A DNA stretch of 64,000 nucleotides from contig NZ_JPOC01000008.1 of NCBI RefSeq assembly GCF_000738775.1, forward strand, positions 62,001 through 126,000. Reading direction: 5' to 3'. The stretch's first letter is position 1. Each line of letters starts with the position of its first letter. This document shows, piece after piece, positions 56,768-56,937 of this stretch. The notes beneath the pieces are model-generated. The model did not search any database. It saw only the letters and a program-made list of their open reading frames with translations, and was not told the origin of the DNA. Source of the stretch: Prescottella defluvii. Its GTDB lineage: Bacteria; Actinomycetota; Actinomycetes; Mycobacteriales; Mycobacteriaceae. Made by a program: the position numbers and the translations under genes.

Positions 56768-56868
56768 GATGAGACCCTTGGTGTAGGAGCCCCGTTCGAA
56801 CGCGAGAACCACCCGGCAGCGACACCGCGAGCGCAGCTCACGGCAACTACCGGCAAGGGGTATCGGGT

Positions 56869-56937
56869 CTAGACCGGGGCCCGGGAAATGAGGATGGTCC
56901 GGGCGCTGCACACGGCAGCGGTCTTCACCGCAAACAT
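56869..56937 (-). CDS. 22-aa leader ORF upstream of the RsgA-like gene
   Basis: An ATG with a strong ribosome-binding site (GGGAGGTGA, 4 nt spacer) opens MFAVKTAAVCSARTILISRA, then PV and a TAG, 101 nt before the GTPase start. A -10-like TAGTTT (56988-56993, minus strand) lies about 50 nt upstream. The arrangement is that of a leader peptide used in translation-dependent attenuation, common before ribosome-targeting resistance genes. Short hairpins can form in the 101-nt gap (for example GAGC-TGC-GCTC). Confidence 0.55.
   Translation of the reverse strand: MFAVKTAAVCSARTILISRAPV

Follow-up and report, generated by a model that had tools for sequence, protein, structure and literature searches.

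A conserved short ORF as the probable translation-dependent leader of a WhiB7-type rsgA–GNAT operon in Prescottella defluvii

Why should a gene for a ribosome-binding GTPase be preceded by a 22-codon open reading frame (ORF) with its own strong ribosome-binding site? This question is raised by a locus in a stretch of 64,000 nucleotides from Prescottella defluvii (the window; contig NZ_JPOC01000008.1, positions 62,001 to 126,000), for which a preliminary description had proposed translation-dependent attenuation. In actinobacteria, mycobacteria included, intrinsic resistance to drugs that target the ribosome is driven by WhiB7. To our knowledge, most WhiB7 targets are without a known role. From the sequence we consider it likely, with a probability of about 0.72, that the short ORF serves as leader in a translation-stress operon of the WhiB7 type, with an rsgA paralogue and a GNAT acetyltransferase gene behind it; stalling would control the masking of the rsgA Shine-Dalgarno (SD) sequence. 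The relevant features are the following.

57010–57024, minus strand: WhiB7/WblC-type activator site AAAATC, three nucleotides and a degenerate −35 element TATCGG, at a position homologous to perfect motifs in relatives
56986–56991, minus strand: −10 element TAGTTT, 18 nt after the −35 element; TAnnnT is aligned in nearly all relatives
56941–56950, minus strand: SD sequence of the leader ORF, GGGAGGTGAG, conserved in the alignment
56869–56937, minus strand: leader ORF of 22 codons plus stop, MFAVKTAAVCSARTILISRAPV, assigned by ORF reading, locus comparison and pN/pS
55673–56767, minus strand: RsgA-family GTPase paralogue, 364 aa (PF03193, 4e-47; TIGR00157 over cut-off; PDB 6h4d RsgA, 1e-37)
55067–55582, minus strand: GNAT-family acetyltransferase (PF00583), second gene of the presumed operon
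54987–57044, minus strand: block shared with Nocardia flavorosea, containing promoter, leader, rsgA and GNAT gene (blastn of the window against four loci, L014–L017)

The leader ORF starts with an ATG at 56937 and ends with a TAG stop at 56869, so that minus strand 56950–56869 reads GGGAGGTGAGTTG-ATG...GTC-TAG. Between this stop and the rsgA ATG (56767) lie 101 nt. These distances agree to the base with the earlier account, and the −10-like TAGTTT that it had placed upstream of the ORF is present at 56991–56986. A GGAGG SD sequence before an ATG-initiated ORF of 15–40 codons occurs twice in the whole window, both strands considered, and the leader ORF is one of the two cases.

The predicted product of the downstream gene has the circularly permuted GTPase domain and the C-terminal Cys/His cluster of RsgA (YjeQ/EngC). 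Its TIGR00157 score is 163.6 bits (cut-off 100), and its alignment with 6h4d runs through the C-terminal region including the Cys and His residues. This protein is an accessory paralogue and not the housekeeping RsgA of the genome. The housekeeping copy is taken to be the one that overlaps an aroA-like frame (contig C16, position 57141), the aroA assignment being made by eye and from the mycobacterial gene order. The second rsgA of this genome is only 65% identical to the window copy. An anti-phage role for rsgA was considered and rejected; PADLOC gave only weak P-loop matches.

The comparison used GTPase homologues from the genus, a public genome set, the family (144 of 401 genomes) and the class (138 of 346 genomes). 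The public set supplied the loci of Rhodococcus zopfii, R. phenolicus, Nocardia flavorosea and N. speluncae. Conservation of the leader in relatives had been set beforehand as a check, and the ORF is indeed present at 30 of the 31 close loci, the window being counted among them, with exactly 22 codons at 29 (29 of 30 and 28 without the window). The ATG, the SD sequence and the position of the stop are kept in the 22-codon close loci, while the stop codon itself varies between TGA, TAG and TAA. By uniform criteria, SD-led ORFs precede rsgA at 28 of 31 close loci, 21 of 37 family loci and 25 of 28 class loci (all of these from other families); shuffled sequences would give 1.9, 1.6 and 1.2, respectively. 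The leader ORF is not due to chance, and its recurrence upstream of rsgA is what would be expected of a translated leader-peptide attenuator. A scan of the same genome for further copies returned the window leader and a diverged one before the rsgA paralogue near 100 kb on contig C16; the remaining matches were at chance level.

The encoded peptides vary far more than the ORF. At loci with 46–56% identity they differ by genus, for example VTVARIAVARRTAPVRTALSFSLSNSTR, and a record named Nocardia farcinica carries VTVVRIAGRRAVSAAAMPFSPSNSPR. Elsewhere in the class, other families have MTAVKTAAVRSARTILTSRAPV or MAVFATGAARIQKFIKSTSVAAG as leader, and between families both length (16–36 codons) and sequence vary widely. 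Leaders that share the same ending comprise 22, 23, 24 or 25 codons, and thus change in length by whole codons only. The spacers between leader and rsgA fall into all three residues modulo 3 (11, 6 and 13 cases). Whole-codon changes in the ORF next to free spacer lengths speak for selection that keeps the frame open and translated. Among the close loci, entropy is about equal at all three codon positions of the leader. The pN/pS ratio is 0.85–0.91 in Mycobacteriaceae and 1.5–1.7 in the Streptomyces-like family (0.85–1.66 overall). What is held in the leader is the frame and its nucleotides, not the amino acids in particular. Since no constraint is seen at the amino-acid level, the leader probably senses the progress of ribosomes in general, a function superimposed on RNA structure. 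A peptide sequence that is not preferentially conserved does not indicate a drug-specific arrest peptide like ErmCL. This candidate, RAP-type endings included, was set aside as improbable: pN/pS lies near 1, and relatives show RVP, RAS or PAR in place of RAP.

WblC/WhiB7 promoters of S. coelicolor follow the pattern GAAAWY-N3-TKGMNN-N16-19-TANNNT (PMC7157823). The window promoter, AAAATC-CCC-TATCGG-N18-TAGTTT, is a degraded match at 10 of 13 positions and by itself unremarkable (shuffle p 0.22). The same place is occupied by a perfect motif (13 of 13) at five related loci (L010, L012, L013, L033 and L034) and by a good one at many others. Matches at 12 or more of the 13 positions were found at 33 of 96 loci, with about 0.1 expected: 11 among the 31 close loci, 6 among the 37 of the family and 16 among the 28 of the class. 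In the close loci the motif sits at one fixed place upstream of the leader, and in most relatives the end of the −10 element lies 38–49 nt before the leader ATG. One of the five perfect motifs (L013) comes from this genome itself: it belongs to the second copy, near 100 kb on C16, which also has its own leader. Between 56700 and 57100 no ordinary sigma-70-like promoter was found. Two short palindromes, CCCCTATCGGGG and, just upstream, TGAAC-N2-GTTCA, overlap or flank the promoter (57005–57045) and are possible operator sites.

A direct link to WhiB7 exists at the level of the protein family. The RsgA/EngC paralogue SCO6149 of S. coelicolor is activated by WblC and SCO5211 is not (PMC7157823). 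Together with the motif conserved upstream of the leader, this supports the WhiB7 connection that had been suggested for the locus. The motif across loci points to membership of the operon in the WhiB7 regulon, with the window copy matching at 10 of 13 positions.

How could translation of the leader affect rsgA? A helix scan of 29 leaders with no preset structure returned as its top two helices P4 (GGGGCYC with GGGUCUC) and P3 (GGGCYCCG with CGGGGCYC). These share one arm and are mutually exclusive, and P4 covers the rsgA SD sequence. The elements in the window are listed here.

56904–56920, minus strand: hairpin P1 (CGCTGC/GCAGCG), lying within the leader ORF; pairing in 93.7% of cells, two pairs changed on both sides
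56879–56904, minus strand: hairpin 1:2 (GCCCGG/CCGGGC), which competes with P3; 90% of cells paired, G-C changed to A-U in four sequences
56875–56882, minus strand: 5′ arm of P3 in the last leader codons, GGGCCCCG; 88.7% of cells paired, with a Streptomyces-like counterpart carrying compensatory changes
56787–56794, minus strand: 3′ arm of P3, CGGGGCTC, which doubles as the 5′ arm of P4, the sequestering hairpin; from the helix comparison
56771–56779, minus strand: rsgA SD sequence AAGGG with the 3′ arm of P4 (GGGTCTC); 92.6% of cells paired

The pairing in P4 was matched by 1 of 500 shuffles. P1 and P2, the latter formed by the leader SD sequence GGGAGGTGAG, which can also pair with leader codons 16–19, exceeded all shuffles both in cells paired and in cells changed on both sides. 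The comparison gives moderate support to hairpin 1:2 as a putative element. In Mycobacteriaceae the changes in P3 are mostly of the G-U type, and covariation does not rise above shuffles. P3 is better supported by two other results. In the Streptomyces-like family it joins last codons GTGGCC-CCGGC to GCCGG-GGCCAC, with paired changes from T-A to C-G and from C-G to T-A. When P3 partners were exchanged among 55 loci, none of 5000 permutations paired as well as the native arms, a result to which relatedness contributes. P3 exceeds GC-rich shuffled arms in strength by only a moderate margin (−21.4 versus −18.5 kcal/mol). RNAalifold recovered part of P4 and not P3.

Folding of the leader in stalled and unstalled states had been suggested as a check, and it gave a mixed result. 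With a ribosome footprint blocked, the rsgA SD sequence is more open when the ribosome sits at codons 9–13 than near the stop, both overall (0.27 versus 0.23) and at the window locus (0.46 versus 0.25). The difference exceeds that of shuffled spacers (p 0.008). A ribosome near the stop leaves the SD sequence less open than it does when spacers are shuffled (p 0.0003). The equilibrium effect is small on average (0.04), however, and several Streptomyces-like loci show none or the opposite one. As in erm-type attenuators, the downstream SD sequence is predicted to be masked by a hairpin, P4, in the uninduced state.

We surmise the following mechanism. Transcription would start upstream of the leader ORF at the WhiB7/WblC-dependent promoter, and the ORF would be translated efficiently from its near-perfect SD sequence. 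Ribosomes that reach the leader stop would cover the last codons or leave them in the local hairpin 1:2. With these codons unavailable, the GGGGCYC in front of the rsgA SD sequence would fold onto GGGUCUC (P4) and mask it. A ribosome that is slow or stalled at about codons 8–13, presumably under ribosome-targeting antibiotics, would leave the last codons free to pair with GGGGCYC (P3). Formation of P3 would preclude P4, so that rsgA and the GNAT gene behind it could be translated; control would be translational and not of the Rho type. The small switch effect, the modest strength of P3 and its absence from the RNAalifold result, the weakness of P3 in Mycobacteriaceae, the 10-of-13 motif of the window and a pN/pS near 1 speak against this mechanism. 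The conserved ORF, the WhiB7-type promoter and the pairings that would mask or free the rsgA SD sequence speak for the attenuation originally proposed, and the ORF is very probably the translation-dependent leader of a WhiB7-type operon. The notion of a self-regulated module, in which RsgA feeds back on its own leader, found no support.

Leader translation could instead control a terminator before rsgA, with P5, a variable hairpin located behind the leader stop at many loci, as terminator or Rho site. The leaders of whiB7 do act by transcription attenuation (PMC10727445). Between 56700 and 57100 there is, however, no intrinsic terminator (a stem with a T run behind it), although Rho-dependent ends would be invisible in the sequence. 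Moreover, P5 is lost at two loci (L023 and L030) and shortened at three (L106, L122 and L123), whereas P4 stays at all of them. We regard this version as unlikely. Somewhat less likely again is a plain WhiB7-activated gene whose upstream ORF senses nothing and merely supplies rsgA with ribosomes through coupling or reinitiation. The motif alone would account for induction by antibiotics, and the amino acids of the leader are unconstrained. Against this stand a gap of about 100 nt, which is long for coupling, the conservation of the alternative pairings that mask the SD sequence, and loci at which leader and hairpin outlast the decay of rsgA.

Two further proposals make the leader peptide itself, or its composition, the point of the ORF. 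A functional microprotein without a regulatory role would explain the good SD sequence and the conserved length. This is highly improbable given the pN/pS values, the variable RAP ending, the divergence between families and the position of the ORF in cis before the operon or its remains at every locus inspected. An amino-acid attenuator, responsive to cysteine for example, was suggested by the one Cys codon of the window leader and can hardly be credited: this codon 10 is Cys, Arg or Gly among relatives, no run of a single amino acid occurs, and the downstream genes are not biosynthetic.

Translational control by SD masking, our preferred reading, probably extends to the rsgA–GNAT operon rather than to rsgA alone. 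The GNAT gene follows rsgA in most close loci, with 58–92% identity over the close loci and the f18 loci. The block from 54987 to 57044 is 89% identical to that of N. flavorosea and about 89–92% identical over Nocardia and Rhodococcus species; N. speluncae and R. zopfii share it with sharp, nearly identical limits. This high identity within such limits suggests horizontal transfer. Beside the promoter lies a stop-broken remnant (57081–57239; CEKTWVDKASGKLARRPEWDKCFDK, stop, GIDTTTPAGRFLFHVIAANMSS) of what appears to be a site-specific resolvase/recombinase; blastn did not find it at the other loci compared (L014–L017). The leader also occurs before other genes. On one Streptomyces plasmid (L126, 4019–4687) it stands directly before a GNAT gene, without rsgA, and reads MTALKATAMRSARTALTSRATV followed by a stop. 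On another (L125), leader-rsgA overlaps a methyltransferase/GNAT fusion with an adjoining Tn3 transposase. At two loci (L132, 1501–2100; L133, 1501–2000) leader, SD hairpin and start codon are intact, rsgA has decayed to a fragment, and an open class I SAM methyltransferase frame follows. The leader before other genes, the shared block limits, the resolvase remnant and the 65% identity of the second rsgA would fit a horizontally moving cassette of which the leader is the constant part.

Attenuation by an upstream ORF and the WhiB7 regulon are known kinds of system. The closest relative is the actinobacterial whiB7/wblC leader, which likewise has a WhiB7-type promoter, an SD-led ORF and a presumed role in sensing blocked translation (PMC10727445, PMC7157823). 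It is also present in this genome, where whiB7 (L094, contig C16 of G000; AT hook RGRPRK) has a 69-codon upstream ORF and a WhiB7-type promoter. In contrast to that leader with its transcription terminator, the rsgA leader has an SD hairpin and no U-tract terminator, and its product is a ribosome GTPase and not the regulator. The erm-type attenuators ermC and ermB share the short leader ORF, the alternative hairpins and the SD sequence of the resistance gene that is masked until a ribosome stalls, features predicted here from sequence; unlike them, the rsgA leader has no conserved arrest peptide and carries a WhiB7-type promoter. HflXr of Listeria is another ribosome-binding GTPase behind a leader (PMC6310831). 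Its leader responds to antibiotics, and that of rsgA may do so by analogy, although the GTPase family (HflX acts on the 50S, RsgA on the 30S subunit) and the phylum are different. SCO6149 is likewise an accessory RsgA of the WhiB7/WblC regulon, a membership predicted for the window operon from the motif. No leader is reported for SCO6149 (PMC7157823). Our literature search found no other paper that names SCO6149, and RsgA and an upstream ORF occurred together only in that same paper, where the ORF is that of wblC. As far as the literature searched shows, the use of such a leader before an accessory rsgA, its spread across the class, its reuse with GNAT or methyltransferase genes and the SD-masking RNA have not been described. 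The leader is widespread and absent from Rfam, which gave no match even at E values up to 1.

More tentatively, and with less than even confidence, a class-wide leader RNA that follows ribosome progress may act together with WhiB7 to control a mobile cassette of leader, rsgA and GNAT or methyltransferase gene that protects small-subunit function during antibiotic stress. If this is true, RsgA would join HflX as a dedicated, leader-controlled GTPase of ribosome rescue or resistance. A second, cis-acting sensor before an accessory RsgA and a GNAT protein would mark the operon as a dedicated response to blocked ribosomes, and would give RsgA paralogues a concrete, testable role.
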